Shown here one piece after another: positions 20,698-55,290 of a stretch of 64,000 nucleotides of DNA. The notes below the pieces were generated by a model. That model ran no database searches and was not told where the DNA came from. It saw only the letters and a program-made list of their open reading frames with translations. The position numbers were made by a program, and so were the translations under genes. The stretch's first letter is position 1; every line of letters begins with the position of its first letter. The stretch covers positions 29,916,001 through 29,980,000 of the forward strand of contig JAYKYS010000004.1 in NCBI GenBank assembly GCA_036924285.1, read 5' to 3'. Source of the stretch: Asterella californica. Taxonomy: Eukaryota > Streptophyta > Marchantiopsida > Marchantiales > Aytoniaceae.

Positions 20698-20948
20698 TAT
20701 CATGCATGGGAAGCAGTCAAGCTGTAGTGACTCACGATTCAAGTCCCGCGAGATCAAGTAGATCAGTTTTACTCCTCACCTTCGAAGACAGTTGAATCAT
20801 CAAATTCTGATTTCTAGACAAGGAAGTACATAAAATCAGATTCAGAGCTCGAGGTCTGGTCTGGTCAGAAATCAGAAAGCTGGACACAGTTCTAAGTGAT
20901 CATGAGAGTAACCCTGATTATGCAAAAGTACGTTCACCCATGAGCAAA

Positions 20949-33060: not shown

Positions 33061-34727
33061 TCTATGTTGTGTGAACCTTATCACGTAACTCGCCAAACGG
33101 TGTGATGAATACCACGTCGCAATAATCTATCTCAATGATCGCACGATAGTGAAACGTGTCAAATCAACGTGTCACTTCAGTGGTCCTTGTTGTCAAAATT
33201 GAGTATAAAATGGTGGGTCGAGGATTCGTAAGGCATTCTATCTTAGCAGGTGATTCATGAGGATTTCTTGATGGTTTGCATGGAGAAGTGAAGTACTGTG
33301 GGAGTGGTGGTTATGGAAGGAGGTCTGATACCAGCTCCGGATTTTCTTTTCTCGAATCAGTTTCACATTAAGCTTCATTGCATCCACCGTGATCAGTTTC
33401 GACAGTGGTTAGTTGCATATTTTGACGATGAATTCATGAAAAAGATGATTGTTACATACGGAGAGACTTTGGATCTAACGATGTACATCTTGTTGTGACG
33501 AAGAATGGATCTCAACTACCCAACCAACGTTCTTTTCAACGTCTGGATTGATATTCGATGTCACTGCAGATCAAAGATCAATCTTGGGGCATGGATCATG
33601 AGGAACTTTGGGGAAGAATATTTAGACCGAGTGATAGTCTCACCATTTCCTTTTGTCGTATTTTTCATTGTAGATCATTTTCAGGTTGTAATATTGACTT
33701 CGTATTAGTCTATGACTCAATTGTTCCATTCTGGTTGAGCACTTCTGTATAGTTACGGTCCGTAGAGAATCTTTCGACATGTCTTAAGGATTTTTTGTTC
33801 TTATTGGTGTCTAGCGTTTCTTTGGGTGTTATAAGTCATTCTAATGATAAAAGTTGAGTGAAGAAAAGCCAAACCAAAAGCTCTTTTTGCTCTCCTTGGT
33901 CTACTTTTGGACCAGTGTGTATGGTGTTCTAACTGATCCTTGTGACGTTTTTTTGTGGTTTTTGGAAGCTTCGGAGGTCCATTCATACGAGGAAGGGTAT
34001 GGTTTGAAAGCTCTCGAGCAGGGCTACAATATGGATTGAAGAATCAAGTGATTTCATGGAGGATTGAGAGCGCTATGATCGCTTGAGTGGAGGAAGATGT
34101 AGTTCATACTCACTGTGATGTTTCCGGTTATTTTGAGATATTTGTGAGGAGTTTTGAAGAGCAGTCATTTGGGTTGGAGAGCTGACAACGAGTTGATCGT
34201 TTTGATATCAATTTCAGTTGATTCTTGATTGATCTGGATTTTGAACTAATCTATTGATGTTTAGAAATATAGACCTGATGAGACGGATATTGCGAACTGT
34301 GCTAATCATATGACATTGGCTATTTCTCGAGTTCTAAGTCAAATTTCTGAGTGAAATTTTCCAAGATTGAGAGATGCCTTATCAATAAGATATCTGAGAA
34401 GTTCCATCTCAAATGGTCGAATATGTTGTTTACGGTCTTGGATCAAATGTACTTGGATCTGTAAAGCTCTTAGCACAGATTACAGTTTGATCAATATTTG
34501 AGATTTGGTTTGAGGTTTTGACCTGAAACTTATTCAGGGTAGGAGTGAAGGGTCCAATAAAGCTTCTTGTGAAATTTGGTCACCATTGGTCGACTGAGTT
34601 ATGAGACTTGAGGTCTCAAAGCTCGGAGAAGCTTCTGTTATTAACAGATTCTAGTTTTCAGTCACATCTATTGTGGTCTTTGGTTCATTTCGAGCAATTG
34701 AGGAGGAGTTTGTTGCTGAAACTACCA
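33061..34727. other. Unassigned sequence left of the methyltransferase Gypsy
   Basis: No gene is recognised. The last bases (TACCA, 34723-34727) border the element at 34728 and compare with ACCA after its other end at 44710. Confidence 0.4.
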
Positions 34728-35021
34728 TGTCACGTCAGTTTGGGCACCTCGGCTAGGTTGACCGAGTGCGAAGTGGCGCATCCCGGTAAGGCCGTTAGTG
34801 CCGTTAGGGCGAGTTGGAGAGAGAGCCCACTAGGGGTAAACTTCGCAGGTAGGGCTTGGAGGCCTTAGTTCTTTGAGTTGAGCCTTCAAGCTCCAGGCTA
34901 TGGTGGATAGTCTAGTTGAGTGTAACCCGGATTCTCTTCGCGTTTAGAGTGGGTTTGGCTTGACCGTTTGTGAGTAGTCCTTGTTGTGGTGTTGGAGATG
35001 GTAATCTCTGTATTCAGATTA
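34728..35021 (+). repeat. Terminal repeat X, 5' copy
   Basis: This 294-bp sequence begins TGTCACGTCAG and ends TTCAGATTA. It equals 44310-44603 except for one base (TTCGCAGG here, TTTGCAGG there). It is part of the LTR, but the 106-bp piece that borders it at the 3' end is absent here. No typical TGG primer site follows it. Confidence 0.93.
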
Positions 35022-36959
35022 CTCAAAGAACTGAGTGCAGGTCGAGGCGGAGTTCAGTAAGAGCTCGCAGATCTGAAATCAGAAATCGTCCGCTGGTATC
35101 TTCGGGCGTTGCCGTTCGTGGTTGATTGTTTGGAGCTGTGATCGAGATGTGTGGGCGCCGTGCTACATTGCTGGTCGCAGATCGATTTGCTGTTGTTGGG
35201 GTCGAGTGGAGATTTCTGTCATGCGGAAGCGCTGTAGAAATTTTGCGGAATGTTCTTGAAGTGTGTTGTTGGAGTCGGATTGCGCGTTTGGGCGTAGCAG
35301 CTGAAATACTTGTCAATGTCGGGCCGGAGTGGACTCTTTGGAAGCGCATTGGAGAGACGATTCTAGCGCACTAAGTTTCGTGGAGTTTGGCCAAGGATTG
35401 AAGAAGTTATGGCATGTCGAAGTTCGCTGCCGTGAAACCCGTAAGCATTAAAAGGCTAGTTACGTCAGATTTTGGCTCAATTTCGTGGGGAAACTCGAGT
35501 TTAGTAGTTGTTTTGTGTGTGTGTGCATCCGCGAAGTGTGTGTGGTGCATTTGCGAATCTGTTTTGGTGGTGTTCGGGTTGGATTTGGAGGTTCTTGCTG
35601 TTTTACGTCAGATTTTGGTCACCCGTGTGCACCCGCAAGTTGTTTTCGCTGTTTTGGAGGTTGTTTTGGTGCAATCTTCTGCAATTCGAGCCTCTTCTGG
35701 TGTGTGTGTACCTGTTCTACTCTACTTCATGCGGAGCGGAGCGGGGAGTGTCGAGGTGTGGAGTGCGTGTTAGGAGGCGTTTAGAGGCTTCGAGGCTTCG
35801 AGGCTTCAAGGAGCAGAGGTGCGTGAGTGCGGAGGCGTGAGAGCGGAGTGCGAGAGTGCGGAGGCGGAGCGGAGCCTGAGCCCGAGCCCGCGCCCGCCGC
35901 AAGCCAGCTTGCTGGCGTGCGTGAGAGAGGTATCCAAGCTTCAGGTGTGTGGGAAGGGTAAAACCAGCTGGTCACCCATCCCAACACTATTCCTGGACCT
36001 GGACTCCTGACTCTGTAGTCTTAGCTTTGGCTTTACCACTAGACCAATAGCTCTTGGTGTCCTACAGGGATGCGTGCAAGTACTTATGGACTTGTATAAG
36101 GTAGTAGGAGACCTTCTCGCACGTCCCTAGAGGAGTGGTAGGGCGACCCCACAGTATTAGGGGGAAGCTATAGTTGTGGTAGTGTTTGCCTACACCGTAG
36201 AGGCGCGTATGGAGGCAATTGGTGGCAGTTGTCTTGGGTGAGCTAGTAGAGCTACCACATGGATGTTTTTGGAGCTACTAGAGGTGTGGACATCTAGTTA
36301 GTGACCTCTAGTGTCAGTTACGACTGTTGGTGACCATATATTGTGCATGTGGTCACCGACAAGGAGTCGTCAATCCGGATGGAGCTGGGTTTCTCTTTAT
36401 GTGAATGTTTGAGTGTGGAGGGTTATCGTTTGGACTTCTTGTGATTGGAACCCCTCCATACTCTACTTCCTGTTTGTGCGCCACGTTTGCGTGTGTTGGC
36501 GCTTGATTTCCGGAGTGAGTTCACTCCAGTGTGCTGTCGGTAGTGAGGCTGGAGTTGCGGACCAGTCAGACTACCTTTGTCTCTCTCACGGTGCGGTTGG
36601 AGTGACGACCAACAGACCGTGAGAGGCTGCTTGTGGTGATGGCAGGTACAGGTTACCCTTACCTTGACCGTCCTAGTAGGGGATAGGTGAGCTCAGTAGG
36701 AGCGGGATTAGGCAAGTGGTGGTTACGGTGGTGACGGAGATTGTGACATTCCGGTTGGGGAGTGTGTTAGCGGGATTCTCTCATCACGGAGTTCTCGGGA
36801 GGTTCTGGTGGGGACTTCTCGGACAGTGGATATACACGGAGTGGGGTGAGGTACCGACTACCTACACCATTGCCGTCGGTTGTTCCAAAGGACGAGTCAG
36901 ACGCAGACAGCGCGTTTTCTGGTGGTGAGTCTAGTGTCGCAACACCGTTGTTGTGGGAC
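35022..36959 (+). other. Long 5' leader of the methyltransferase Gypsy
   Basis: About 1.9 kb separates the 5' repeat from the gag ATG. It holds a GC- and CpG-rich stretch at about 35745-35925 with GAGGCTTC tandem units and GGAGCGGAG phrases, an antisense SINE-like block, and G/T-rich sequence. Several long overlapping frames run over 35.4-35.8 kb but have low complexity and no family match. No clear primer-binding site was found directly after 35021. Confidence 0.6.
35936..36065 (-). repeat. SINE-like block with tRNA-like and 5S-like boxes
   Basis: On the minus strand the block reads TTGGTCTAGTGGTAAAGCC, close to a tRNA A box, and about 60 bases further GGGATGGGTGACC, the internal box C of 5S rRNA genes, followed by CTGG as in 5S. 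A good B box is not evident. It may be a tRNA/5S chimeric SINE inserted antisense into the leader. No poly-A tail or target duplication was identified. Confidence 0.5.
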
Positions 36960-39320
36960 ATGGACGAGATCTATGGGGCCACGAAGGGACCTCGCCGTTA
37001 CTCGGGTACAGTTGGTACCATTGAGCTGGATGACTTCATCCAGGAGTTTGACAGTTGGTGCGATCTGCAGCAGATGCGGAACCCACAGCTGTTTACACCC
37101 TTCATGGCGTGGAAGGGTTTGTTCCAGCACTTGGAGGGACCGCCGATGGACGATTATCATGACTTCAGGAGAGATTACAGTGTTGAGATCGAGTTGTGGA
37201 GACAACATTGGTCTCCCAACTACGTTTCTATCACTACTGGTGCAGTTTCGGGAGGCGTAGCACATGCGAGTTCGGGTGTCAGTAGCAGTGGTACAGCCGC
37301 AGGTGGCGGAGTACCTACTACCAACGGTGCGTCCACATGTAGTGGAGCGGGTGGTAGTGTGAGCGGGATACCACCAGGGTTTAACCCTGTGGTTCAGTTC
37401 TTCCAATGTTTGAGGAAGAACTATCAGGGTGTGCGGACCGACAAGTTGAGGAGTCTGCAAGAGTTCCAGCGGAAGACTGGAGAGAGCCTACGCGAGGCGT
37501 TTACTCGCATGAGGCGGTTGATCAGCGTTACCCAAGGGGTGACGGAAGCACAGGCAGTTCAGTTCTGGTGTGGGATACTAGACCGGGAGCTGCGTAGAAG
37601 AGTTAGAGATGCTACTCTTCTTAGAGATGCTACTCTTCTTAGAGATACCGCTCCGACGTTGGCGGTTGTCTTTAGTCTGGCTGAGCGGATTGAGCTCAAC
37701 ATGGTGGAGGAGAGGGTGGTGGTTGCTGGGTTTAGCAAGGAGACACCACATGGAGCGACCACCTCTTCTCGAGGATCACAGGCTACGCAACAGCGTGGTG
37801 GTGGTGGTGGTGGTAAGGATCGTGCAGAGCAGTCACGATCGCAGGGAGGTGTAGAAGGATCTGGTGGGCAGAAGCCCATGCTGTCCTTTGCTAGTCAGCA
37901 GCAAGCGGGTCCTTGCTGGACGTGTGATGGTCCTCATCAGCAGAGGGACTGTCCACAGAGGAGAGGTTATGAGACGTCAGGGACATCAGGGACGTCTCCA
38001 GCAGTACCTAGGCAATGTGAGCATTGCGGACGACCTGGTCACAGTAGTGACCGTTGTTTTGATCTCCATCCCGAGTTGCGGCAAGGGAAGGCTGATCGTG
38101 GACAAGGCGGAGGAGCTCAGGGAGGCCGTGGTGGTCGAGCTGGAGGTAGAGGTCCAGCACCTGGGAGAGGACCGGTCGGTCCACCGCCTGCTACGACGTC
38201 AAAAGCAGATATGGCTGCTCGGATTGAGCAGTTGGAGCAGAGGATAGCTAGTATGGCTATGGCCCAGCGGAGATCAGGTGGAACAGAGGCTTCCACATCT
38301 TATGGAGGAGAAGGAGGTGACTTCGACTTCATGGCTGGTGTGACGCAGATTGAGGCATCTGCGGCAGTGACTAGAGGTGCAGTACGTGCCTCTGAGCCAC
38401 GAGGTGCGTCAGTGGAGTTGGATCCACAACGCGGGGAGGCTGGTAGACAAGCCAGGCTTCCCCAGTCGTTCACGTTATCGGAGGCGTTGAGGACCACATC
38501 TATGGTTCCTAAACGACCTACCGATGGTGCAGTAAAGTTGGAGGCATCGACATCCAAGAGTGGGTGTGATGTGAGTCCACCTTCGACGTCTGTGGATGCG
38601 ACGTCGAACCCGATGTTGGGGACGGCTACAGCAGTTTTGCGAACCTCACTATTCTCAGCCACGGATATGAGAGCATTGGGAGTCAACTTGGCTCCAGTGT
38701 TCCAGTTGGCGGCCACGCTCAGTGAGAGCGAGGATGTAGTTACCTCTAGTGCTGAAGTAGTTCAGCGAGAGGCGGTAGACGTGTCCATGGAGTCGAGGAT
38801 CAGGACAGCTACCAGTGGTACTTGGCAAGCGGCGGCTGCTAGGTTAGATGAGTTACCAGCTAGGCCGGCGATTGACCGTGCTGGTTTGGCACCAAGTGTG
38901 GTGTTGTTGGACAACAGAAGTGGTATCTTCTGTTTGGTGGCACCTTCAGGGAAAGTGTATCGACCTCAGAAGGTCTTGTTAGACTCTGGAGCCCAACCGT
39001 TGATGTTGGGAAAGGCGGCGTGTATTGGTTTGGGTCTGAAGAAGTCCGAGATAGAGAGATGTCCATTCCAGTTGCAGACATCTCTAGGGGGATCAGGAGG
39101 TACGGCTCTACACATGACACGTGAGATGTTGACGGTGAGAGTTCGGCCAGATCACCCCACGGATGGCTCTATGATGAAGGCCAAGGCCATTGTTACAGCC
39201 GCAGAGTCTTATGATGTATTGGTGGGAGGTGCTGTGTTGTACCCTATGGGGTTCGTGATTGACTATGGGCAGAGACAGCATCTTACAGACCAGGTTGGCA
39301 GTCCGGTGAGGGACGAGTGA
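36960..39320 (+). CDS. Gag-protease polyprotein of the methyltransferase Gypsy
   Basis: The frame is open from upstream of 36846; the first ATG is 36960 (786 codons). Domains in order: N-terminal gag, a Gly/Ser/Thr-rich stretch, the capsid-like region with LRSLQEFQRKTGESLREAF, a Gly-rich stretch, a first knuckle CWTCDGPHQQRDC, a second knuckle CEHCGRPGHSSDRC, a coiled segment RIEQLEQRIASMAMAQRR, and a retropepsin-like protease with LLDSGAQPLMLG (Asp encoded at 38982). An 18-bp in-frame duplication (37608-37643) doubles DATLLR; the copy at 1-3 kb has a single unit. The terminal TGA (39318-39320) is conserved in both copies, so release here is normal. The methyltransferase follows in the frame shifted by -1. 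Confidence 0.9.
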   Translation: MDEIYGATKGPRRYSGTVGTIELDDFIQEFDSWCDLQQMRNPQLFTPFMAWKGLFQHLEGPPMDDYHDFRRDYSVEIELWRQHWSPNYVSITTGAVSGGVAHASSGVSSSGTAAGGGVPTTNGASTCSGAGGSVSGIPPGFNPVVQFFQCLRKNYQGVRTDKLRSLQEFQRKTGESLREAFTRMRRLISVTQGVTEAQAVQFWCGILDRELRRRVRDATLLRDATLLRDTAPTLAVVFSLAERIELNMVEERVVVAGFSKETPHGATTSSRGSQATQQRGGGGGGKDRAEQSRSQGGVEGSGGQKPMLSFASQQQAGPCWTCDGPHQQRDCPQRRGYETSGTSGTSPAVPRQCEHCGRPGHSSDRCFDLHPELRQGKADRGQGGGAQGGRGGRAGGRGPAPGRGPVGPPPATTSKADMAARIEQLEQRIASMAMAQRRSGGTEASTSYGGEGGDFDFMAGVTQIEASAAVTRGAVRASEPRGASVELDPQRGEAGRQARLPQSFTLSEALRTTSMVPKRPTDGAVKLEASTSKSGCDVSPPSTSVDATSNPMLGTATAVLRTSLFSATDMRALGVNLAPVFQLAATLSESEDVVTSSAEVVQREAVDVSMESRIRTATSGTWQAAAARLDELPARPAIDRAGLAPSVVLLDNRSGIFCLVAPSGKVYRPQKVLLDSGAQPLMLGKAACIGLGLKKSEIERCPFQLQTSLGGSGGTALHMTREMLTVRVRPDHPTDGSMMKAKAIVTAAESYDVLVGGAVLYPMGFVIDYGQRQHLTDQVGSPVRDE

Positions 39321-39379
39321 GTCGCTTACCAGTGCGGTTCAGTGCTAGAGTTGGGACGACGGAGCCTACACCAGGAACG

Positions 39380-40903
39380 ATGGCATCCGTTGCAGGGTTC
39401 AGTTCGATCATCACTTGGCCGGACGAGTTGTTGGAGGGTAATGCTCATGCGGAGGATACTCCGATCTATGAGGAGGTGGAGAACATGCCTAGCATGTCTA
39501 CGTTAGTACCATCTGCATTGGATGTTCCACTCTGGAGTTCGAGTGGAGAGTTGCAGCAGTATGCTGATCAGTTGGTGCAGCAGGCTTGGAGTGAAGCTTT
39601 TGTACCACCAGTAGAGGAACAAAGGGTTGTTCCTGCTACTGGTCCTATGACCTTATCACCGTTGGATACGACTCCCATTGTGTGGCAGTATCCAGAGGAA
39701 GGTGTATGTGTGCTGGAGCTGTTTGGAGGGATCAGCACAGGTTTGGCTGCGGTATTGCAGGCAGGTATACAAGTACAGCGATACTTGTATGTGGAGAGAG
39801 ATGAGATTGCGAGACGCATCTCATTGCGACATGTGGCACGTTTGGTGCAGAGATATTCTGAGTTGTTGCCCATATCAGCTGTTAGAGGATACCAGCAAGC
39901 ATTACCGTCGGATATTTCGCTGCTGGGGGCGCAGGATCTCACGTTTGTGGGCACCATTCACTTGGTGATAGCCGGATGGCCATGTCAAGGTCACACGCGT
40001 GCAGGGAGAGGTCAGGGTTTACATGACCCGCGATCTAGGATGTTCTGGGAGATGTTACGGATCCTACGACATCTCCAGATGCATCAGGTGGATTCTCCAG
40101 CGTACATCTTGGAGAACGTTCCTTTGTTGGGTGATGCTCGTACACAGATGATGGCGAGTGTGCACCAAGTGCGGTCTTGGGTTGGACCAGCAGTGTTGTT
40201 GGATGCAGCGAGAGTGGGATCTCGTGCACATCGTCCACGGTTGTGGTGGACGAACTTGTTACCGAGAGAGGTGCTTAAGCGCGCACACGATGGAGTGAGA
40301 CGACCAGCGCACCTCACGGTTGATAGCATCTTGGATGCAGGACGACGATCTCAAGTAGTGAGAGTCGTCGATAGGTCACCCATGGCAGTGGTGAACCTAG
40401 TGGGACGACCTATGGTAGCATTACCCACATTGGTAAGCTTTCCAGCGTCACATGCTTACAGAGATGGAGGACCTAGGCTTGTGTGGGATGCTCAATTACG
40501 GCAATTGGTGGAGCCCAATGCCGATGAGAGAGAGCGAGCGATGGGTTTCACTACGGGTACGACGGCAGTAGCTTCGGTGTCGGAGGCTTCACGTCGTCAA
40601 GTATTGGATCAAGCAATGGACTTGAATTGCTTGACATGGATTGTTAGCCTTGGATTGGCTGAGCAGCGTCGGATGCGATCGACGGGTGTTACTGCTCGAG
40701 CACTCTTGAGCTCTTTGCCTACCGGATCGATGGAGGCAAAGGCTGGGGGCGAGGCAAGTGGAGTTCGTCATCCTTGGACAACATGGGATGTCATAGGAGA
40801 GAGTGTGGAGCTTGCAGCTAGAACTGCAGAAGTTTTACGCACAGTAGCGGTGGAGGTTGTTGGTGGTGAGCAGAAGGAAACTGCTCCAGAGGCTGCAAGA
40901 TAG
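39380..40903 (+). CDS. Cytosine-C5 DNA methyltransferase, DNMT3-like, retrotransposon-borne
   Basis: The enzyme would transfer a methyl group from S-adenosylmethionine to cytosine in DNA. Numbered from the ATG at 39380 (507 codons): motif I ELFGGISTG at 113-121 for cofactor binding; a YVERDE segment after it; motif IV GWPCQGH with catalytic Cys at 202; motif VI ENV at 245-247; an RAHRPRLWW segment at 282-289, like the motif VIII region; and a C-terminal segment with ERERAMGF near 383-390 followed by a helical tail. The motif order and the wording of I, IV, VIII and the tail resemble DNMT3 more than DNMT1 or bacterial enzymes. No PWWP, ADD or UBA domain is visible; the first 100 residues have no known fold to me. 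The open frame begins at 39317, before the gag stop, so -1 frameshifting is an alternative to reinitiation at 39380. TAG TAG ends it. All catalytic motifs are intact. Confidence 0.92.
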   Translation: MASVAGFSSIITWPDELLEGNAHAEDTPIYEEVENMPSMSTLVPSALDVPLWSSSGELQQYADQLVQQAWSEAFVPPVEEQRVVPATGPMTLSPLDTTPIVWQYPEEGVCVLELFGGISTGLAAVLQAGIQVQRYLYVERDEIARRISLRHVARLVQRYSELLPISAVRGYQQALPSDISLLGAQDLTFVGTIHLVIAGWPCQGHTRAGRGQGLHDPRSRMFWEMLRILRHLQMHQVDSPAYILENVPLLGDARTQMMASVHQVRSWVGPAVLLDAARVGSRAHRPRLWWTNLLPREVLKRAHDGVRRPAHLTVDSILDAGRRSQVVRVVDRSPMAVVNLVGRPMVALPTLVSFPASHAYRDGGPRLVWDAQLRQLVEPNADERERAMGFTTGTTAVASVSEASRRQVLDQAMDLNCLTWIVSLGLAEQRRMRSTGVTARALLSSLPTGSMEAKAGGEASGVRHPWTTWDVIGESVELAARTAEVLRTVAVEVVGGEQKETAPEAAR

Positions 40904-40906
40904 TAG
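40901..40906 (+). other. Tandem TAG TAG stop between methyltransferase and pol
   Basis: The methyltransferase frame ends in two consecutive TAG codons. The same frame then stays open through a Ser/Thr-rich stretch to the pol ATG at 40934. Pol could be reached by readthrough or by a new start; a double stop argues against simple suppression. Confidence 0.8.
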
Positions 40907-40933
40907 TCAACGACTTCGTCTTCTACCTCTAGC

Positions 40934-43900
40934 ATGGTGACAGAGGATACTTGGGAGCCGGAGATCGGACCCAAGCTTATAGGAGAGGAGAGACGAAGAG
41001 TCCAAAGATTCCTGAAGAGCTACAGGAATTGTTTTGCCTTCAGTATGAAGGATTTGGGTACCTTGAAGGGACCTGGTATACGGATCGACTTGGCTAATGA
41101 CACGTCAATCTTTCGACGTCCTTACAGGTACAGTGACATGGAGAGAGCCTTGATCGAGAGTCGGACTCAAGACTTGTTGGAGGCTGGGTTGGTGGAGATG
41201 TCGCATGGAGAGTATGCATCTGCCACAGTTATGCCAGCCAAGAAGGATATGTATGGCAACTACACGGATAGGCGGATGTGTGGAGACTACCGTCCTATCA
41301 ATCGGCAGACGAAGTCCGATAAGTATGCCATGCCGACACCTGAGGAGATCTTTGATGCAGTGGAGCATGTGAAGGTCTTCAGTACTTTGGATCTTCGAGC
41401 AGGGTATCATCAGTTGCCAGTGAGAGAAGAAGATAAGTCCAAGACAGCATTTTGGAGAATTGACTCTCACGGCAAGGATTGTTTGTATCAGTGGCGGTTC
41501 TTACCATTTGGGTTGAAGAACGCCCCTGCTGAGTTCCAAAGGGTGATGGACAGAATCCTAGCAGGATTGGATTTTGTCATATGTTATATTGACGACATCT
41601 TAGTCTATAGTGCTACAGTGGAGGAGCACGAGAGACACTTACGAGATGTGTTTGAGCGGTTGAGAGCTCATGGGTTGAAGTTACACCCTGGGAAGTGTAA
41701 GTTCTTCCAGGAGTTGGTAGAGTATCTGGGCCACATCATCTATCCAGGTGGATAGGGTGTTCAACAGACGAAGGTTGAGACTATTGCACGTATCCCACGC
41801 CTCACAGATGTGAGTCGAGTTCGAACATTTGTTGGTTTGACGAACTTCTATCGTCGATACGTGAAAGGGTTTAGTGCAATTGCGAAGCCGTTGACCAAGC
41901 TGATGAAGGTGGATCAAAAGTGGCAGTGGGGAGATGAGCAGGAGCGAGCTTTCATAGAGCTCAAGGATAGGTTGACATCTGCTCCCATCTTGAGGAGACC
42001 CGTTAGGGGGCGTCCTTTCCAACTGCACACCGATTGGAGTATGTTGGGACTTGGAGCAGTGCTGACTCAGCATGATGATGAGAAAAAGGAGTTCGTGGTG
42101 GCGTATGTCAGTCGCTCCAACAATTCAGCGGAGGCGAGGTATAGTTCGTATGAGGGAGAGTGTTTGGCGGCAGTATGGGCTGTTGCACACTTTCGATGTT
42201 ATCTGTTTGGGAACCCTTTTACTCTCATCACTGATCACCAACCGCTCAAGTGGTTGATGGAGTCCGACAAGCTTACAGGGAAGCTTGCACGATGGGCTCT
42301 GATCTTACAGGAGTATGACTTCCAGGTAGTACATAGACCTGGAGTTGCAAACCTAGATGCCGACGGGTTGAGTCGCAACCCGTGCACGAGTCAGCAGGAT
42401 CAGACTGGGGCTCGCTGGCATGACGAGGTTGATGAGGAGATAGTGCCAGGGTGGCATGCATCTGCCTTTCTTTGTGTGTTGGCCATGAACTCTAGTATGG
42501 AGGGCCAAGTCGTATCTTTCTCTGGTCAGAGAGTAGATGATGAGTCTCCAGATCCTGAGGGTGGAGATGGTGTTTCAGACCAGCGAGATATCCATGATGA
42601 TGTGACCGTGATGGAGTATCTACGTACTGGTGTGGTAGTAGGCACAGTAAGTGCCAAGGAGCGAGATCGTGTCCTTCAACGAGCGAAGAGATTTCGACGA
42701 GAAGGACGACATGTACTTCGAGTGTGGGGTGATGGGAGGGTACGGATAGTGCCACATCCATCCCAGAGGGCACAGTTAGTACGACATGCCCATGAGGAGT
42801 TGGGACATTTTGGAGTGAAGCGTACGCATAGCTTACTCCAAGGACAGTATTGGTGGCGTGGTATGCACATCGATGTGCAACAGTTTGTCGCACGATGTGT
42901 GGTTTGTGATCGAGTACGAGCATCGTTTAATGCTCCTACTCCACAGTTACACCCCTTACCGATTATGGGGTTGGGTTACCGTTGGAGTTTGGATTTTGCG
43001 GGACCCTTACCGTTGACCGTACGTCACCACCGGTATGTGTTGGTGATGGTGGAGCACTTCTCCAAGTGGATTGAGTTGGTGGCATTACCAGACAAGACGA
43101 GTGAAGGGACGGCGTACGCGTTCTTAGATCGAGTGCTGAGTCGTTTCGGAGCACCAGCTGAAGTGCTGATAGACCAAGGTACAGAGTTCCTTGGTGAGTT
43201 TCAGGCCTTGTGTGATCAGGCGCTGATTTATCATCGGACTACATCTCGAGATCATCCTGAGGCGGATGGTTTGGCGGAGAGGGTAGTTCAGACGGTGAAG
43301 AGAGGATTGCGCAAGTATGGCTTGCAGAAGGGCCACTTGGGAGACTGGGATGTGCAGTTACCATGGTTGGCTATGGGCTACCGTTTTAGCCGACAAGCGT
43401 CTTTGGCTTCCTTCTCACCGTATTTCTTATTGTATGGCCGAGATCCAGATCTACCTTCGGCCATTCGTCGTGATTCTGCTGAGGTGCTGGACCTTGATGA
43501 CCCGGATATGTGGGTGAGAGCATGTTCTCAACGAGCAGAGACATTTCGGAGAGTTATGCCTATGGCTTTTGAGAACCTAGCGATTGCCCAGCATAGAGAC
43601 ACGTTGTGATATGCAACTATCCGAGGAGGAGGTTATCGACCATCGATTCGCAGGTTTCATCCTGGCGATTATATCTATCTGCAGCAGACTGCACCGACGA
43701 CGTTGGATGTGACCGCAGGACGCACTATTTTACGAGTGCGTGAGGTGTTATCTTCTGGAGTACTCATGTTAGAGGGCCGTGATGGTGTTGTTTGGAAGGA
43801 CCATGTGCGTAATTGCGCGCCATGTCATCTTCCCAACATCGATGGTACCGTTGACCCAAGCTTGGCAGTTGTACGAGCAGGCTTGAGGTGTATATTGTGT

Positions 43901-44028
43901 GGGTCTGCTGGTGGAGCAGCCCGTATGTGGTGTGTGATGGTTGTTCGAGAGGTTGGCACATGTCATGTTTGACTCCACCTCTCAGTGTAGTTCCTACTGG
44001 ACGGTGGGTTTGTCCTCGATGTATATAG
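40934..44028 (+). pseudogene. Gypsy pol: RT, RNase H, integrase and PHD-like tail, with two stops and a frame change
   Basis: The RT is read at 40934-41752 with KDMYGNYTDRRMCGDYRPIN, ILAGLDFVICYIDDILVYS (YIDD encoded at 41585-41596) and FFQELVEYLGHI. A TAG at 41753-41755 interrupts; the frame continues with VRTFVGLTNFYRRYVKGFS. RNase H has LHTDWSMLG, YSSYEGECLA and LITDHQPLKWL. Integrase has an H-H-C-C zinc region (ELGHFGVKRTH, CVVC), then catalytic Asp at 42992, Asp at 43172 and Glu at 43277 (34 residues between the last two, where 35 is usual). A TGA at 43607-43609 interrupts again before RGGGYRPSIRRFHPGDYIYL. The two stops fit CAG-to-TAG and CGA-to-TGA changes. A single-base change inside the C-terminal finger follows. 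This copy cannot make full pol without suppression. Confidence 0.9.
43889..44022 (+). pseudogene. PHD-finger-like C4HC3 module at the pol C-terminus, frame-broken
   Basis: The integrase frame reads LRCILCGSAGGAA from 43883, giving the first Cys pair (43889, 43898). From 43921, in the frame shifted by one base, the strand reads YVVCDGCSRGWHMSC, LTPPLSVVPTGRWVCPRC and stops with TAG at 44026-44028. Together this gives C-x2-C, about 10-11 residues, C-x2-C-x4-H-x2-C, 14 residues, C-x2-C, the PHD layout, including the CDGC-x-GWH and PPL...W-CP signatures. PHD fingers usually read histone H3 tails. Here it sits where chromoviruses carry a chromodomain, so a role in choosing integration sites is an inference. 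Confidence 0.85.
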
Positions 44029-44187
44029 CGGAGATAGTCGATTAGATCTTTGCGTGGTATGGATTGCAGACAGGCGACTAACGATGGGGCAATGTACCAC
44101 CCGGCCTCCTGATCCTTGCACCCATGAAGGTGTGTATCACGTAGTTGGGATATGGAGCTATCTGGAGTTAGAGGAACCTAACCGTCA

Positions 44188-44200
44188 GTTAGGGGGGCGA
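44188..44200 (+). other. Polypurine tract of the methyltransferase Gypsy
   Basis: AGTTAGGGGGGCGA precedes the first 106-bp repeat unit (44202), as expected for the plus-strand primer next to a 3' LTR. Confidence 0.7.
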
Positions 44201-44201
44201 T

Positions 44202-44307
44202 TGTGGTACACTTGTGTATGTGTATGACATCGTCCATGTATTATGTGTATGTGTGGTGTACCTCTGACAGCGATGTATGTTGTGTAGCGATGTGTATGCG
44301 CACGACA
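44202..44307 (+). repeat. Terminal piece A, copy 1 (106 bp)
   Basis: It begins TGTGGTACAC after the polypurine tract and ends GCACGACA. It differs by one base from 44605-44710. Two bases (GC) separate it from repeat X. No copy is found at the element's 5' end. Confidence 0.92.
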
Positions 44308-44309
44308 GC

Positions 44310-44603
44310 TGTCACGTCAGTTTGGGCACCTCGGCTAGGTTGACCGAGTGCGAAGTGGCGCATCCCGGTAAGGCCGTTAGTGCCGTTAGGGCGAGTTGGA
44401 GAGAGAGCCCACTAGGGGTAAACTTTGCAGGTAGGGCTTGGAGGCCTTAGTTCTTTGAGTTGAGCCTTCAAGCTCCAGGCTATGGTGGATAGTCTAGTTG
44501 AGTGTAACCCGGATTCTCTTCGCGTTTAGAGTGGGTTTGGCTTGACCGTTTGTGAGTAGTCCTTGTTGTGGTGTTGGAGATGGTAATCTCTGTATTCAGA
44601 TTA
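44310..44603 (+). repeat. Terminal repeat X, 3' copy
   Basis: This 294-bp copy matches 34728-35021 and is sandwiched between two copies of piece A. Confidence 0.93.
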
Positions 44604-44604
44604 T

Positions 44605-44710
44605 TGTGGTACACTTGTGTATGTGTATGACATCGTCCATGTGTTATGTGTATGTGTGGTGTACCTCTGACAGCGATGTATGTTGTGTAGCGATGTGTAT
44701 GCGCACGACA
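44605..44710 (+). repeat. Terminal piece A, copy 2 (106 bp)
   Basis: It ends in CA at 44710 and is followed by ACCA, matching the left flank of the element, so 44710 is probably the outer border. Confidence 0.92.
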
Positions 44711-44924
44711 ACCATGCTTGCATGCAACTTGACATTGTGAAGATGTGGGGCTGATTTCAGCTCTTTGTGGTGAAGGAGAATGGAGTCGCGATGAGTCATA
44801 AGCCGCTGTTTGGATTTTCAGAGCTATCAAGTACCGCCATCATTAGTGTTATGTTGTGATTTGAGTAGTGTATTGAAGCATACATGCTTTACCTTGCTAG
44901 GATGCTTAGGAGACCAAGGTGTGC
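44711..44924. other. Flank between the two Gypsy elements
   Basis: This 214-bp stretch separates the methyltransferase Gypsy from the young Gypsy and ends in GTGC (44921-44924), the target duplication of the latter. No coding content is seen. Confidence 0.6.
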
Positions 44925-45840
44925 TGTAACGACCTATGTTACACATAGGAAGTTTATCTATTAGTAAGATGTTTAGTTCTAACTAAGTGTTGAGAATGTT
45001 TATTTGCTGCCAAAGTACTTTTAGGAGATATCAAGTTAGTCATGACTAGCTAAAAGTTAGTTATGGTTAAACTTAGCTGTACTTTTGGCAGAATTCAGAT
45101 ATTTGCTAAAGAGTGAGCACTACTATCTTGTCATCTTGTCTAAAAGGTAGAAAGGGGGTGGAAAGTATCCCTTATCTCCTTTTTGACTTGATATTAGTGG
45201 TTGGATTAAAGTTGTGGACTTTGTGGGCATTAAAAACAAGAAGAGATTCCACATGTTTCCTTTTTAGTGGGTCCTAGTGTAGAGGGGGGGTGGAAATTCG
45301 AGATTCCTTGAGAATATTCCAGAATCCTTCTAGAAGTTGTTGACTTTGAAGGAATAAGCCCATGTGAAAAGGTAAAAAGCCCATGTGATCAATGCTTTTA
45401 CCTTAAGTAATATCTTAGTAAAACCCGGTAAAAGTAGTTACGGCTGAGTTACCGGAGGGTACCAAAGTAAAAACCTAGAATGTATAAATAGAGGAGTAGA
45501 GAAGAGCTCCTCATCCTTGTTTTCACATCGTCGTAATGACAACTTGAGTAATATAGAGAGTGTGGGATATTTTTAGCATGTGAGAACTTGAGAGACGTCG
45601 TTAGAATGGAGGATTTTAGTGGATGAGATTATGGAGATTTTAGTTGATAAGTTTGTGGGTGTATGAATGAGAGTGAACTTAACATTTTTCCCTTCAAGAT
45701 TCATGGTGTGCTTCCATCAAAGCCATCAGAGGTGACCCCTGAGTGAGAGACAGGCCCGACAGTTGCAGATTCGTGGATGACGATCGTGGAGGTTGAGAGA
45801 TCGGGGGGTAGTTGATCGTTAGGACCGCGGAGGGTTTACA
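44925..45840 (+). repeat. 5' LTR of the young Gypsy
   Basis: This 916-bp LTR has a TATA box TATAAATA at 45483-45490, suggesting that transcription starts some 30 bases further on and that U3 is about 590 bp. Confidence 0.95.
45483..45490 (+). promoter_or_regulatory. Probable TATA box of the LTR promoter
   Basis: TATAAATA followed by GAGGAG; the identical site occurs in the 3' LTR at 53332-53339. Confidence 0.7.
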
Positions 45841-45844
45841 TTTT

Positions 45845-45861
45845 TGGTTCCGTTGCCGGGA
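45845..45861 (+). other. tRNA primer-binding site, Asp-like
   Basis: TGGTTCCGTTGCCGGGA begins four bases after the LTR. It closely resembles the tRNA-Asp primer site TGGCGCCGTTGCCGGGGA used by several plant Gypsy lineages, with a few differences. Confidence 0.75.
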
Positions 45862-46079
45862 CCTCACTTGAAGGGATCGTTGAACGATGTTTAGAGTTCA
45901 GTTCTATATTCGACAAAAGGAGATTATGAGAGAGCACATGGAGAGAACGTTGGGAGGAGAGAGAGCTAACGCGATGTTAGCAACGTTAGAACCTTTCGTG
46001 TATCCCGTAGTGATATATGACGCGTTCGAAGTCATTCTTTACATCTTGTTCACTTAGAAAGGGTTTGAGGAGAGTTGAA

Positions 46080-46620
46080 AGGAGGTGCAACAAGAGTTGT
46101 AGAGAAGGAGGAGAGAAAAGTTATTAGAGGAGAGAAATTTGTGAGTTTAGAAATTCTGCTCTCTGGAAAATTTGTACAGTCGCTGTCAACTTTTATGTGA
46201 ATTTTATTTTCCTGAGAAACTTTCCAGTGTTTTAGATTGGCTGATAACCTATCTAAGACAAAAGGAATCATAGGAAAAGGTGGTCTAGAGAGGGAGCAAT
46301 GATTTTTCAAAGTTGAGGGGGTCTATTCGTGAGAGTTGAGGAATTCTGTTATCTGGAAAAAATTTACAGTCATTGTCAGATTTTCTGTGAATTTTATTTT
46401 CCTGAGAAACTTTCCAGTGTTTTAGAGTGGCTGATAAGCTATCCAGGACAAAAGAAATCATGAGAAGATGAGGTCTGAAGAGGGAGAAAGAATTTTTCAA
46501 AGTGGAGGGGGTTGACAACCATGAGGGAAGTGGAAATATACAAATTTCAGTTCTCTGAAAATTTGTACAGTCATCACCATCTCTTCTGATTAGGGAAGTT
46601 TCTGTTGAAACTTCATGATT
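46080..46620 (+). repeat. Tandem repeats of about 190-200 bp in the leader
   Basis: Two full units and one partial unit start near 46153, 46343 and 46543. Each has TCTGGAAAA-TTTACAGTC, and the full units share AATTTTATTTTCCTGAGAAA, CTTTCCAGTGTTTTAGA and a GAGGGAG...TTTTTCAAAGT end. They lie in the untranslated leader before the first small ORF. Confidence 0.85.
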
Positions 46621-46727
46621 TAGTAGCTTGGAGGTTGAGCTACTAGAGATAACAAAAATCTTGGAGAGATCTCGTACCAACTAAGAGATACACGTTTCGG
46701 CATACAAGGAGGTCTTGAAGATACTTC

Positions 46728-47045
46728 ATGGGGAATCCTGTTCGAATGACGAGGTGGAAGAAGAGACGTTTAGGAGTTCGAACAGAGACGGAGAAACCCA
46801 AGTTGAGTATAGATGAGTTACGAACCCGCATCTATAGCACTTGGGGTGCTCTCTTTACCCTATACGAAGAAGCTTCCGCGACCATTGGCACAGATTTGAA
46901 GAAAGCCGAGTTTAAAGCATCATTCACTGTGGAGGCCACGAATGCTCCTGGTGAAGTAGAGTTGGATTTTTACAAGAGTGAGTTCAAGATGTCTGTTGTG
47001 ATTAGTACAAACGATGGTGAGGAGGATCATATCTTCGATAGTTAA
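46728..47045 (+). CDS. Small accessory ORF of the young Gypsy, unknown function
   Basis: This 105-codon frame starts with ATG directly after the leader repeats. It has a basic N-terminus (RMTRWKKRRLGVRTETEKPK) and an acidic C-terminus, with no signal peptide, membrane segment or zinc motif. I recognise no family. Because the element is young and the main polyprotein is intact, the open frame may be a matter of age and not of selection. It could be a nuclear-localised regulator, but nothing in the sequence proves this. Confidence 0.5.
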   Translation: MGNPVRMTRWKKRRLGVRTETEKPKLSIDELRTRIYSTWGALFTLYEEASATIGTDLKKAEFKASFTVEATNAPGEVELDFYKSEFKMSVVISTNDGEEDHIFDS

Positions 47046-47183
47046 ATTTAGATTAGATTTTATTTCGTGTATAGCATGTATAATACACGATTTCCAATAT
47101 AAAGCTCGGAAGAGTTAAGAAAGTGATGTAGAATTGTTTTCCTCTATGATATTTTGTCCACTTAATGGTTGAGAAGGTGCAAC

Positions 47184-47660
47184 ATGAGTGGAAATTTAAA
47201 AGATTGGAAAGTTAGACTTAGAAACCTTCCTCAAGGTTTAGATGTCATAGTAAGTGTCGGAGAAAGTTCGAGAGAGATTATCGTCGAGTTTGAAAACCCT
47301 AGTACTAAACCCCAAGTAGAATCTCCGAGGAGAAGAGTAGAAACCGACTTGTGGTGTTATTTCTGTAGAGGGTTGGGACACAAAGTAGTGAATTGTCCAA
47401 CTAGAATCAGAACCGAGAGAGCTAAAGGGAAGCGGGAGTTTACTGATTTGAGTCTTCGAGTGGGTCCATCGTCACCAGCGCCAATTCATCTTCTAGGCGA
47501 AGATCCTTGTCCAAGTTGTGGAGTGGGTGATCTATCAAGAGGACACAAGTGCGTCGATGTGGCCGCCCTACTTACGTCCGTAGTCGAGAAGTTGGACGAG
47601 ACTCAAAGAGCTGAGACGGAGAAGTTGTCGACTTCAAAGGAGGACTCGGCTGAGTTGTGA
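47184..47660 (+). CDS. Accessory zinc-knuckle ORF of the young Gypsy
   Basis: The frame has an ATG at 47184 (158 codons). It has a CX2CX4HX4C knuckle (CYFCRGLGHKVVNC) near residue 60 and a second Cys/His cluster, CPSCGVGDLSRGHKC, some 45 residues later; the C-terminus is Lys/Glu-rich. It stands upstream of a polyprotein that has its own gag and knuckle, so it looks like an additional nucleic-acid-binding protein. It might be a duplicated nucleocapsid that became separate, or a piece of the original gag. No closer family is known to me. Confidence 0.65.
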   Translation: MSGNLKDWKVRLRNLPQGLDVIVSVGESSREIIVEFENPSTKPQVESPRRRVETDLWCYFCRGLGHKVVNCPTRIRTERAKGKREFTDLSLRVGPSSPAPIHLLGEDPCPSCGVGDLSRGHKCVDVAALLTSVVEKLDETQRAETEKLSTSKEDSAEL

Positions 47661-47873
47661 TGGAGATCGTCATTCGGATGGTGGAGAAGGCGGTGATGCG
47701 ACTCAGACTCATGATTACCTTGGGGGAAGAGATGGCACAAGAGGTGTTGTTACAACCATTTCCTTTCATTTTACCTATGGTAGATTATTCGCGAATGGAA
47801 TTGGTGATGTTCGTACTCTTTTAGCGAGTAGTTATTGCACGACGATTAGAAGAGTAGAAAGAGTAGTTACAAG

Positions 47874-50800
47874 ATGGGAAAGCTACCCGTGTTTCATGGG
47901 AAGGACAATGAAGATGTAGAACCGTTTGTTCGAGACTTCAAAAGGGGTTGCATCGGAAACAACGTGAGAAGGAAGGAAGAATGGGTGTTGTTACTGCCAG
48001 AGTTTTTAGAAGATTTTGCTCTTACGTGGTATGAAGACCGAGTGAAGAGCCAGACACCTGGTGCAGTTGAGGACACATGGGAGACGTTGAGTAATGCACT
48101 CATCGAAGAATTTCTTCCAGAAGAGAGTTATGAGAAGCTCATGGTGGAGCTTACTCATTTGAAGCAACGTGACGACGAGAAAGTTCGGCAATATGCCGAA
48201 AGGGTGGATAAGTTGGAGCAACGGTTTCGGACGGTCCTACGGAAGAGTGGAGACAATGTGGAACTAACGATGGCGGGGATTGGAGCAGTGCTGACCAAGA
48301 ACTTGGTGGGAGGGTTGAGACCTTCAATTCGAACCCAAGTGAGGTACGAGAAGCCAGCAACCAAAGCGGAGGCCATCAAGATAGCGACAAATATGGAAGA
48401 GAGTTTGGATGAAGGAGATATCATCCAACCTCATCATGCTGCTCTGGTGTCAACTCCGACTCCTGGTGTAGCCACAACGATCGCACCTGCACCATCACAA
48501 TTGGTGATTGCTTCAACGTCAGCTCCTACTCCAACGGTGGTGCCAAGACCGTTTGTCCCAACAACGATGTCTACTGCCACCTCTGATTTTCATGCCGAGC
48601 TGAAGAGCATCACTGACACTCTTGCGGATCTCAAGATAAATGTGGTGCAGTTACGAGAATGGAGGAACAAAGGTGGAGGAGGAGGTCAAAGAGGTTACGA
48701 CAACAATCCCAACCGAGGAAATCAAGGTAACTTTGGAGGCAACCAAGGTAACTTTGGAGGAATCACTTGTTGGACGTGTGGAGGTTCTCATTTCCAGCGA
48801 AATTGTCCTAACAACGGAGCAAGAGGTGCCGAAGCTGTCAGAATGAATGTGGGTGGAGGAAATCCATCACAAGGACGAGACAAAGGGGTGGCTACTATCG
48901 ATGTCGTGCGAGATCCCATCTACGAGAAAGGAGAGAGTTCAAACTCTTCTCATGCACCGGTGGAGCTTTTAGCTCAAGAAAGAAAAAGAACTCGATTTTC
49001 TGATGAACCGGTTTTCATGGAGGAGTCAGCAAGTAGAAGTACTCGTTCGAGTAATGTTTCGAGTACACCAAGGGAGCCAAGAAGGAAGCTGGGGATGGCG
49101 GATTTCACCATTTCATCTTCCCAAGCGGGATATGATGTGGTTGAAGATGTGGGTGCTCAGAAAGCCAACATCACTGTTGGACAACTGATCGCACTTAATC
49201 CCAGCTTACGAAGGGAACTCAGAGGAGGACTGAGTTCTAAGAGAAGCAAGAAGAAGAAACCCAAGAGCAAGACATCAAAGTCAGTGGGAGTTGGTGTGGT
49301 GGATGTGCATGCTTCAGAGGTATGCACTATGGCTTCAAAGATTGAAGTCCGATTGAATGGTCACTACGTCTCTGACGTATTGGTGGATGGAGGGTCGGCT
49401 GTAAACGCCATATCGGAGAGGTTGATGAAGAAGTTGGGAATGGAACCAACTCGCCCGGCTAGCATTGTCGTGGGGATGGCTAACAAGCAACGGGTAAGAC
49501 CTCTTGGTGTGTTAGAGAAGGTGGTCGTGTCTGTGATGGGAGTTCAAACATTGATGTCCTTTCAAGTGTTAAAGGACTCTAGTTATGATTTGCTCCTAGG
49601 TAGGCCTTGGTTGAGAGCTGTGCGCACCACGGATAGGTGGCACAAGGGATACTTACGAATTGGGCCTAGAGATCATAGAGTGATAGTTCCTCTCTCGGGT
49701 GTTGGAGTTGTGACTTCTGACTCTGATAGACCCACTAGTGACTACTGGGAATCTGATACGGAGGATGATCAGAGTGTCTCGGAAGTAGATACTGGGGATT
49801 CTTACGACCAAGAATCCTCGTCTGAGGATGAAGGATTTGGTCGAGACGAATCAGTACATCAGCTTAGTGCTATTGACTTGTTGCCTCGACCAGCAGTGGA
49901 GAAAGATCCTGACAAAGAAGAGTTGAGTGAGGCAGAGATTGTGAGAAGACTCTCTACCCTGAAGTTTGGTATCAATGTCACTCAAGAAGAGAAAAGTAGA
50001 TTCCTAGATATATTTCGAAAATATATCCATGTGTTTGCTTTCAGCTACAACGATTTGAAGGAGGTGACCCTCGAGACTCATCGAATCGAATTGGAGGAGA
50101 ACGCAAGACCAGTTCGACAGAAGCAGAGAAGGGTCAATCCTACAACGGCAATGATGGTCAAGGAGGAGATAGACAAGTTGAAGGAGGCGAGTTTCATCTA
50201 TGAGGTGGAGAACTCAGAATGGGTTTCACCCATTGTGATTGTCAAGAAGAAGAATGGTAAGCTGCGAGTGTGCATAGACTATAAGAAGCTGAATGCAGTT
50301 ACCAAGAAGGACTATTATCCTCTACCATTTATAGATGAGATTTTGGAGGAAGTTGCCGGTCATGAGTGGTACAGCTTTGGTGATGGTTATAGTGGATACA
50401 ACCAGATCAAGATAGCACAGGAGTACCAGCAGTTGACTACTTTCACTACTCCTTGGGGAACATTTGCATTTCGAGTGATGCCATTCGGACTGTGTAATGC
50501 TCCGGCCACGTTTCAGAGGTTCATGAACAAGGTGTTTGAACCATTCATAGGGAAGTTTGTTCGGGATTTCATTGACGATTTCTGTGTGTACGGACGAAAG
50601 GAGGACCACTTTGATCATGTGATCAAAGTTTTGCAGCGGTTGGAGCAAGCCAACGCTTCTCTAAATCCAGAGAAGTGCATCTTTGGCTGCGAAGAAGGTC
50701 TGCTGTTAGGGCACATCATTTCCAAGAATGGGATTGCGGTAGATCCTGAGAAGGTGAAGAAGATTGTGGATCTTCCATTTCCGATCAACTTGACAAAGTT

Positions 50801-52760: not shown

Positions 52761-52773
52761 TCCGGGGGTAAAA
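52761..52773 (+). other. Polypurine tract of the young Gypsy
   Basis: TCCGGGGGTAAAA lies directly before the 3' LTR start TGTAACG at 52774. Confidence 0.85.
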
Positions 52774-53689
52774 TGTAACGACCTATGTTACACATAGGAA
52801 GTTTATCTATTAGTAAGGTGTTTAGTTCTAACTAAGTGTTGAGAATGTTTATTTGCTGCCAAAGTACTTTTAGGAGATATCAAGTTAGTCATGACTAGCT
52901 AAAAGTTAGTTATGGTTAAACTTAGCTGTACTTTTGGCAGAATTCAGATATTTGCTAAAGAGTGAGCACTACTATCTTGTCATCTTGTCTAAAAGGTAGA
53001 AAGGGGGTGGAAAGTATCCCTTATCTCCTTTTTGACTTGATATTAGTGGTTGGATTAAAGTTGTGGACTTTGTGGGCATTAAAAACAAGAAGAGATTCCA
53101 CATGTTTCCTTTTTAGTGGGTCCTAGTGTAGAGGGGGGGTGGAAATTCGAGATTCCTTGAGAATATTCCAGAATCCTTCTAGAAGTTGTTGACTTTGAAG
53201 GAATAAGCCCATGTGAAAAGGTAAAAAGCCCATGTGATCAATGCTTTTACCTTAAGTAATATCTTAGTAAAACCCGGTAAAAGTAGTTACGGCTGAGTTA
53301 CCGGAGGGTACCAAAGTAAAAACCTAGAATGTATAAATAGAGGAGTAGAGAAGAGCTCCTCATCCTTGTTTTCACATCGTCGTAATGACAACTTGAGTAA
53401 TATAGAGAGTGTGGGATATTTTTAGCATGTGAGAACTTGAGAGACGTCGTTAGAATGGAGGATTTTAGTGGATGAGATTATGGAGATTTTAGTTGATAAG
53501 TTTGTGGGTGTATGAATGAGAGTGAACTTAACATTTTTCCCTTCAAGATTCATGGTGTGCTTCCATCAAAGCCATCAGAGGTGACCCCTGAGTGAGAGAC
53601 AGGCCCGACAGTTGCAGATTCGTGGATGACGATCGTGGAGGTTGAGAGATCGGGGGGTAGTTGATCGTTAGGACCGCGGAGGGTTTACA
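52774..53689 (+). repeat. 3' LTR of the young Gypsy
   Basis: This 916-bp LTR is nearly identical to 44925-45840 and is followed by the target duplication GTGC. Confidence 0.95.
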
Positions 53690-54480: not shown

Positions 54481-55290
54481 AGCTATCACTGCTAAAGTGG
54501 ATTTTTCTCCTTTATGGTTTGATAAGGGTGCATCATGACATTCCTTAAGCAACTTAGTCTTAAGTTTTCCTTGTCCCACATAAACAGGACTTTGCTTGAA
54601 CATGAGTAAGCCATGTCTCAACTGCATGTTCTGCAACTTCACTCCTTGTTTAAGCTGTTCTAGATACTCCTTCGCTTGATCATCGTCTATGTAACCTTCA
54701 CGTATTCGTCTCTCCAAGTTTGATTCCTTAAGATACATAGCTTGCAAAATCTGTGTTGACGATGAAAGATATTCCTCCTTGCGACTCAAGGCACCAAGAA
54801 CCACATTGTCCTTTCTCGCTTTGTGGATTAGTTCCACATTCATGAGCGCTAAAGTATCATCCCACCGTAGTTGCTTTGACGTCATCCAATCTTGTGTCTC
54901 AAAGTACTTGAGCAAAATATTATCAATATACACTTGGGTTTTGTGAAGTCTTAAGTAATGCTGTCATTTCCTCAAGCAATGAATCACCGCAAATAGTTCC
55001 TTCTCGTGAGTCGGTGATCGACTCTCTATCTCATATAACTCTCTTGCTTTCGTACGCTACAGATTTTCCATCATGCACCAACACTCCGTCATCACATTGT
55101 CGCTCGCGTCTGTGTGCACCTCAAATGGTTAGTCAAACTCCGGTAGTTTCAAAACTGATGTCTTTGACAAAACGGATTTGATCATCCGGAACGTATCATC
55201 CACCTCCTTAGTCCAACTTACATGTGCATCTTTTCTCATCCAGTCCGTCAGCGGCTTTGTGATTTTTGAAAACCCCTTCACATACTTACG
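54457..55290 (-). pseudogene. Gypsy RNase H and integrase zinc region
   Basis: Minus reading from 55290 gives GFSKITKPLTDWMRKD, FEVHTDASDNV and SPTHEKELFAVIHCLRK, the RT end and RNase H. The frame at 54933-54457 continues with NVELIHKARKDNVVLGALSRK (RNase H end), then KLLKECHDAPLSNHKGEKST (integrase zinc region). At least one stop lies between each piece. Confidence 0.82.

Follow-up and report, generated by a model that had tools for sequence, protein, structure and literature searches.

The window analysed here is a 64,000-nucleotide stretch of the Asterella californica genome, and all coordinates refer to it. Its open frame at 39380–40903 raises the question of how a DNMT3-like cytosine methyltransferase came to lie within a Ty3/Gypsy retrotransposon, and what the element does with it. 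A sequence-only reading had regarded the enzyme as intact and as occupying a frame of its own between gag-protease and reverse transcriptase (RT). The results below lead us to consider it likely that the locus belongs to a Ty3/Gypsy family that is of the KnitGypsy-Dnmt3 kind and has been active recently, with a cycle that would proceed through circles.

The methyltransferase domain and its polyprotein

The frame runs uninterrupted on the + strand from the ATG at 39380 to the TAG at 40901–40903 (507 codons; the open part covers 39263–40903), as the sequence-only reading had stated. The profile search proposed there was significant, with PF00145 matching at E 3.2e-9 (37.1 bits; cut-off 22). A sequence search among solved structures placed DNMT3A on top (E 8.5e-10), followed by weaker relatives: an entry titled merely DNA methyltransferase (E 0.001), HaeIII (E 0.0019), and DRM2 (E 0.019). 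Foldseek comparison of the AlphaFold2 model gave DNMT3 entries in 50 of 50 cases among the matches listed, at 17–22% identity. The best TM score was 0.84 by target length and 0.45 by query length. The pLDDT values were mostly above 85 for residues 131–470 and mostly below 60 for residues 1–90. Sequence, Pfam, AlphaFold2/Foldseek, and motifs place the domain at 39704–40642 on the + strand, with approximate ends. Motifs I (FGG), IV (PCQ), VI (ENV), VIII (RAHRPR), IX, and X, in what we take to be their usual numbering, occur in this order, and the DRM-type rearrangement was not found. Motif I, PCQ, ENV, and the RPR region, all named earlier, could be read in frame. Pfam scans of the methyltransferase frame, and of 1045 codons of frame 1 in copy L002, gave no match to the ADD or PWWP domains of animal DNMT3. 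Sequence and structure model thus confirmed that 39380–40903 encodes a C5-cytosine methyltransferase domain with the DNMT3 fold, for which catalysis is predicted.

The whole element spans 34728–44710 (+). RT, RNase H, and integrase had significant Pfam scores 3′ of the methyltransferase, which upheld the placement of a DNMT3-like enzyme in a Gypsy element. Pfam identified an rve integrase instead of the tyrosine recombinase of DIRS elements. Pol (RT, RNase H, H2C2, and DDE integrase) occupies 40907–43606 (+). Upstream, at 36960–39270 (+), gag with two CCHC knuckles and an aspartic protease (DSGA) were recognized by eye from the first ATG of frame 1 onward. The Pfam scores of this stretch were sub-threshold for gag (E 0.041) and the knuckle (E 0.26), and the protease had no match. 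The window copy is broken. A frameshift near 39.27 kb separates the protease from the methyltransferase, a second stop follows right after 40903 (next bases TAGTCA), further stops occur at 41753 and 43607, and the PHD finger is frameshifted. The term intact therefore holds for the open methyltransferase frame and fails for the element copy.

The A. californica assembly (516.7 Mb, 773 contigs) was found to contain at least 79 copies of the family including the window's own, a lower bound obtained by scoring 79 of 5297 first-look candidates. The remaining copies are unspliced and 96–98% identical to the window over residues 2–546. The domain is free of stops in 63 of the 79 copies; the 16 stops comprise nine TAG, seven TGA, and no TAA. 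An open frame of at least 1366 codons without a stop was present in 37 of the 79.

The copies revealed where the methyltransferase belongs. In L002, gag-CCHC-protease runs unbroken into the methyltransferase (1371 codons from stop to stop). Among 20 loci, the methyltransferase frame had no stop across 1500 nt upstream in 14 and was frameshifted or broken upstream in six, the window included. All 20 have the UAG and pol 3′ of the domain. The UAG (40901–40903 in the window, + strand) is in frame with both the methyltransferase and pol. The boundary reads TAGCAGTCA in 19 of the 20 loci and TAGTAGTCA in the window, so that the UAG is followed by CAGTCA, a CAR-YYA context, in 19. Leaky stops of the tobamovirus type have the form UAG-CAR-YYA (PMC3542737). 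Eight of 10 translated copies have pol open in the frame of the UAG up to a TAG behind the PHD finger (1041 codons in seven copies, 1038 in one). The distant element L042 matches in context (TAG CAA TCA), domain order, and PHD finger. The intact copies show gag, protease, and methyltransferase as one frame, with RT–RNase H–integrase–PHD in frame after the UAG, a stop that would allow readthrough into pol.

The proposed frame between gag-protease and RT thus turned out to be the C-terminal portion of a polyprotein that begins with Gag and protease; it appears separate in the window because that copy has decayed by frameshift. A separate methyltransferase gene was ruled out, since intact copies have an unbroken frame 1. 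In three relatives (P0119, P0122, and P0166) methyltransferase and RT are not separated by a stop, and the leaky stop is therefore not general to the kind. The element composition given at first was correct as far as it went, and is completed by the leaky-stop context, a PHD finger, and DIRS-like split repeats.

The PHD finger lies at the integrase C-terminus (43889–44025, +). PF00628 matched it at E 6.8e-11 in the sister copy L022, and the nearest solved PHD relatives include CHD4, DPF2 (ubi-d4), KDM5B, and an MLL3 homologue. Its pN/pS was 0.31 in 35 of 41 copies, with zero stops, and 0.15 in seven copies. We infer that the finger reads histones; it would probably steer integration through recognition of histone H3.

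Pooled pN/pS values were 0.17 for the methyltransferase core (190 pairs), 0.36 for its N-terminal part, and 0.17 for gag-pro (91 pairs; window omitted), with pairs more than 12% apart dropped as frame slips. The RT part of pol gave 0.10 (121 pairs) in the same 20 loci, which were not chosen by RT similarity. Seven copies yielded 0.03 for RT, 0.30 for RNase H, 0.19 for the integrase core, and 0.06 for the integrase C-terminus. The value of 0.17 points to purifying selection on the methyltransferase domain, with the ranking of the 20 loci by methyltransferase similarity biasing pN downward.

Split terminal repeats and the route of integration

The insertion is flanked by 4-bp target site duplications (ACCA, 34724–34727 and 44711–44714). 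Terminal repeat A1 (294 nt, 34728–35021) begins with TGTCACG. The polypurine tract TTAGGGGGGCGA (44189–44200) stands immediately 5′ of B1 (107 nt, 44201–44307, last bases ACGACA), which is followed by a GC spacer (44308–44309), A2 (44310–44603), and B2 (44604–44710), all on the + strand. The layout is A-coding-B-GC-A-B; the insertion starts with A (TG) and ends with B (CA). Of 41 copies examined, 34 have a B-A-B right end, and A was found on the left in 32 of these. Two others are A-coding-B (c526 and c313b), and five are truncated or rearranged. A was present in the left part of 38 of the 41 copies and B in none, which ruled out conventional LTRs. The 4-bp duplication was found in 34 of the 35 copies having both ends, the exception being the rearranged c43.

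Copies c526 and c313b have 4-bp duplications and lack A2-B2; c313b carries an extra partial A at its left end. Both run counter to the cycle proposed below and could stem from one-LTR circles or from later recombination.

A second Gypsy element directly downstream (44925–53073) contrasts with the split repeats in having conventional LTRs. Its 300-nt stretches at 44925–45224 and 52774–53073 are 100% alike, and its gag-pol frame is open (47850–52760, 1636 codons). Elsewhere in the window we observed a Copia-type RT fragment (7472–8164, − strand; PF07727, E 6.4e-49), with repeats 5.6 kb apart (6186–6445 and 11775–12033) that are perhaps its LTRs. A retroviral aspartyl protease fragment (55286–55972, − strand; PF08284, E 1e-8) is a remnant of another element. 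A 335-nt inverted repeat, 96% complementary, has its arms 8.6 kb apart (12039–12373 and 20947–21281).

The joints between the repeats differ in their behavior. The B1/GC/A2 joint did not vary among the 36 copies in which it was read, and the A1/coding and coding/B1 joints (38 copies each) showed substitutions with zero length change. The A2/B2 joint (44603/44604) has the usual length in 25 of 34 copies and varies in length in nine: seven have one extra base, k35 has polypurine-tract sequence, and c1b has a 22-nt repetitive filler. The one-base variants recur across different A subtypes. Other length changes in the aligned B-A-B stretch occurred at two places, in one copy each, alignment ends aside. 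A1 and A2 of the same copy differ by a median of 1 across 31 copies, in which a single value of 150 was attributed to a slip at an indel, as compared with 7 for A2 between copies (306 pairs of equal length). Zero difference in A or B was seen in 13 of the 31 copies. The ACGACAGCTGTCACG junction is also present in L042.

The 11 nt adjoining A1 (35022–35032, +) form a probable primer binding site. Their reverse complement, AGTTCTTTGAG, lies within A (34867–34877, +) and is the probable 5′ end of a self-primer RNA. Site and complement match in each of the 38 left ends read, and among 20000 letter shuffles of A nine contained such a complement. The pairing was set at 11 nt because position 12 of the site varies while A does not. 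The counterparts are 155 nt apart in the window; in L042 they measure 13 nt and lie 176 nt apart. A local 12-nt hairpin at the primer site makes the self-priming case weaker for L042. The complementarity suggests a transcription start inside A. Tf1 is known to prime itself, Tj1 has been proposed to do so, and the same is predicted of plant Tcn1 elements (PMC4600332, PMC6317226).

These features can be arranged into a cycle. The RNA would span from inside A1 to inside A2, and its first 11 nt would anneal to the site behind A1 and, as in Tf1, serve as the primer for reverse transcription. Plus-strand synthesis would start at the polypurine tract 5′ of B, and the linear cDNA would read BA-coding-BA. 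Joining of its ends at the A/B joint would give a circle, in which the integrase would cut the internal CA-GC-TG and insert A-coding-B-A-B. An A2/B2 joint of variable length, combined with constant length at the other three joints, is what such end joining and subsequent cutting predict. Joining of ends between two linear cDNAs would give the same A/B joint as a circle. In retroviruses, two-LTR circles are regarded as dead ends. For the present family we lean, by a narrow preference, toward the two-LTR circle as the normal substrate of a DDE integrase, in an element that also combines a leaky stop and a histone reader with a DNMT3-like enzyme carried on Gag.

The same layout might arise in a linear manner, if A-coding-B-A-B were reverse-transcribed directly from a long RNA running from A1 through B2, recombination kept the copies of A and B alike, and the joint were a mutational hot spot. 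DIRS elements attain this layout with a different enzyme, and the canonical length of the A2/B2 joint in 25 of the 34 copies fits as well. We nevertheless judge this route unlikely. Polypurine-tract sequence, small B-side start shifts, and filler are expected from joined polypurine-primed ends, the one-base variants arose in different A subtypes, and the equally repeated B1/GC/A2 joint is invariant in all copies read. The circle route is preferred, and for it the joints provide a sequence-based case that a DDE integrase inserts from circular cDNA. The literature searched on two-LTR circles together with DIRS yielded no report.

Possible roles of the methyltransferase

Being made with Gag, the enzyme would probably be present in many copies per particle. 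Its most likely substrate would be the element's own cDNA or the freshly inserted copy. Methylation of cDNA was suggested by de Mendoza et al. 2018, and CG methylation by SymbioDIRS domains was shown in yeast (PMC5890265). Concealment from host defence and control of copy number, both raised in the sequence-only reading, are further candidate roles. The observed/expected CpG ratio is not lowered in the element (0.77) relative to the flanks (0.76 and 0.82); the sequence thus shows no sign of CG methylation above background, and CpG depletion was rejected as a mark of self-methylation. Singletons in the methyltransferase were C:G to T:A in 65 of 89 cases, and singleton C>T changes were not concentrated at CG (per site 0.105 at CHG, 0.075 at CG, and 0.064 at CHH). 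Strand-biased G>A as a trace of cDNA deamination was rejected too. Per-site G>A was higher than C>T in the methyltransferase (0.089 vs 0.050) and gag-pro (0.046 vs 0.028), and the bias was reversed in pol (0.029 vs 0.037).

The enzyme might instead act in trans on rival elements or on the family's genomic copies and so limit copy number, a role that we regard as possible though doubtful. It would accord with the at least 79 copies, 63 of them without a stop in the domain, and de Mendoza et al. named the slowing of retrotransposition among possible roles (PMC5890265). The neighboring Gypsy frame, which has no methyltransferase, showed the lowest CpG observed/expected ratio measured (0.68), but a single neighbor set beside 0.69 for the element's frame 1 and 0.76–0.82 for the flanks is no test. 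The position behind Gag-Protease would, moreover, place the enzyme in particles with the cDNA. Action on the element's own cDNA or new copy remains our favored reading.

It is improbable that catalysis has been lost and that the domain works within Gag as a structural or nucleic-acid binding module. The K. nitens domain had no activity in yeast, a result called inconclusive by its authors (PMC5890265). Set against this, the catalytic Cys is conserved in 86 of 88 retrotransposon rows having a letter at the site, the ENV Glu in 90 of 93, and the two Arg residues of motif VIII in 86 of 92 and 89 of 91, despite identities to the window of 28–77% in the methyltransferase alignment of 48 rows. The idea that the frame is a host DNMT3 gene, or that it resembles a methylase by chance and happens to adjoin a Gypsy element, can practically be dismissed, given the at least 79 unspliced genome matches, each over residues 2–546, the UAG and pol behind the domain at 20 of 20 loci, the recurrence of protease followed by methyltransferase in proteins of Marchantia, Calypogeia, Sphagnum, and L042, and the co-inheritance of methyltransferase and RT described below.

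Relatives and comparison with known systems

Protein searches returned at least 86, at least 52, and at least 62 related proteins in overlapping sets. Their named hosts are Marchantia, Calypogeia, Riccia, Sphagnum, Closterium, Klebsormidium, Cymbomonas, and Chrzof1, the last of which we take to be Chromochloris. One record each stood under Candidatus Obscuribacterales and a Minisyncoccia bacterium; both are presumably contaminants. The nearest named kin of the element are in liverworts and Sphagnum. The presence of related proteins in Marchantia, Calypogeia, Riccia, and Sphagnum brings land plants into the range of the kind. As Marchantia is used in the laboratory, the benefit of an own methyltransferase to a transposon is directly testable there. 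A search of viral contigs gave one match, at 29% identity.

A 98-row tree built by a quick method placed the window in a starred 31-row set with all of its Marchantia, Calypogeia, and Sphagnum rows. Two layouts were distinguished, with the methyltransferase before RT (21 rows) or between RNase H and integrase (39 rows). This split was recovered in both the RT (98) and methyltransferase (99) trees of the 60 rows having both domains, which were unrooted and made by the quick method. A careful 16-row tree reproduced it with 100/100 for RT and 91/97, unstarred, for the methyltransferase. The agreement between the two domains indicates a long shared history of enzyme and element. The 21-row grouping is a side of unrooted trees and a putative clade. 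P0166 (KFL_009030040, K. nitens) fell on the window's 21-row side in both trees, with an unsure inner place; P0133 and P0134 have long branches and unsure placement.

The L042 methyltransferase is 42–50% identical. L042 is a Synechococcales MAG contig with a 127-nt end overlap (1–127 and 9159–9285), assembled as a circle, and is probably a eukaryotic retrotransposon misfiled as cyanobacterial.

A methyltransferase-carrying Gypsy kind is already known as KnitGypsy-Dnmt3, and capture in charophytes and dinoflagellates, mentioned in the sequence-only reading, is documented in the same paper (PMC5890265). New relative to the literature searched are the land-plant hosts, the position of the enzyme on Gag ahead of a leaky UAG, the presence of a PHD finger, and the evidence from the joints for integration out of circles. 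That literature, which left most subscription journals outside, held no report of bryophyte elements, the PHD finger, or the circle route.

Among known systems, DNMT3A and DNMT3B share the catalytic fold and motif order and differ in having PCN where the window family has PCQ, a family that also gave no ADD or PWWP match in the Pfam scans. Tf1/Sushi elements and plant Tcn1 chromoviruses have conventional LTRs. They share self-priming by the RNA 5′ end, which the 11-nt complementarity suggests here; they carry a chromodomain, whereas the window family has a PHD finger at the integrase C-terminus and split repeats (PMC6317226, PMC4600332). KnitGypsy-Dnmt3 of Klebsormidium nitens shares the Gypsy pol, the non-rearranged DNMT3-like domain, and the DIRS-like repeats (PMC5890265). 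The main text of that paper, figures aside, does not contain the words PHD or readthrough. The methyltransferase of KnitGypsy-Dnmt3 is described in the Pol frame, whereas here it stands in the Gag-Protease frame before the UAG, which is a difference of arrangement inside one kind. The partial K. nitens protein P0166, taken as a KnitGypsy-Dnmt3 copy, has a single uninterrupted frame that encodes protease, methyltransferase, RT, RNase H, and integrase and is 50% identical in RT-RNase H. SymbioDIRS-Dnmt3 shares the DNMT3-like domain and the A-coding-B-A-B repeats; it uses a tyrosine recombinase and a DIRS-type RT, whereas the window element has a DDE integrase and 4-bp duplications (PMC5890265).
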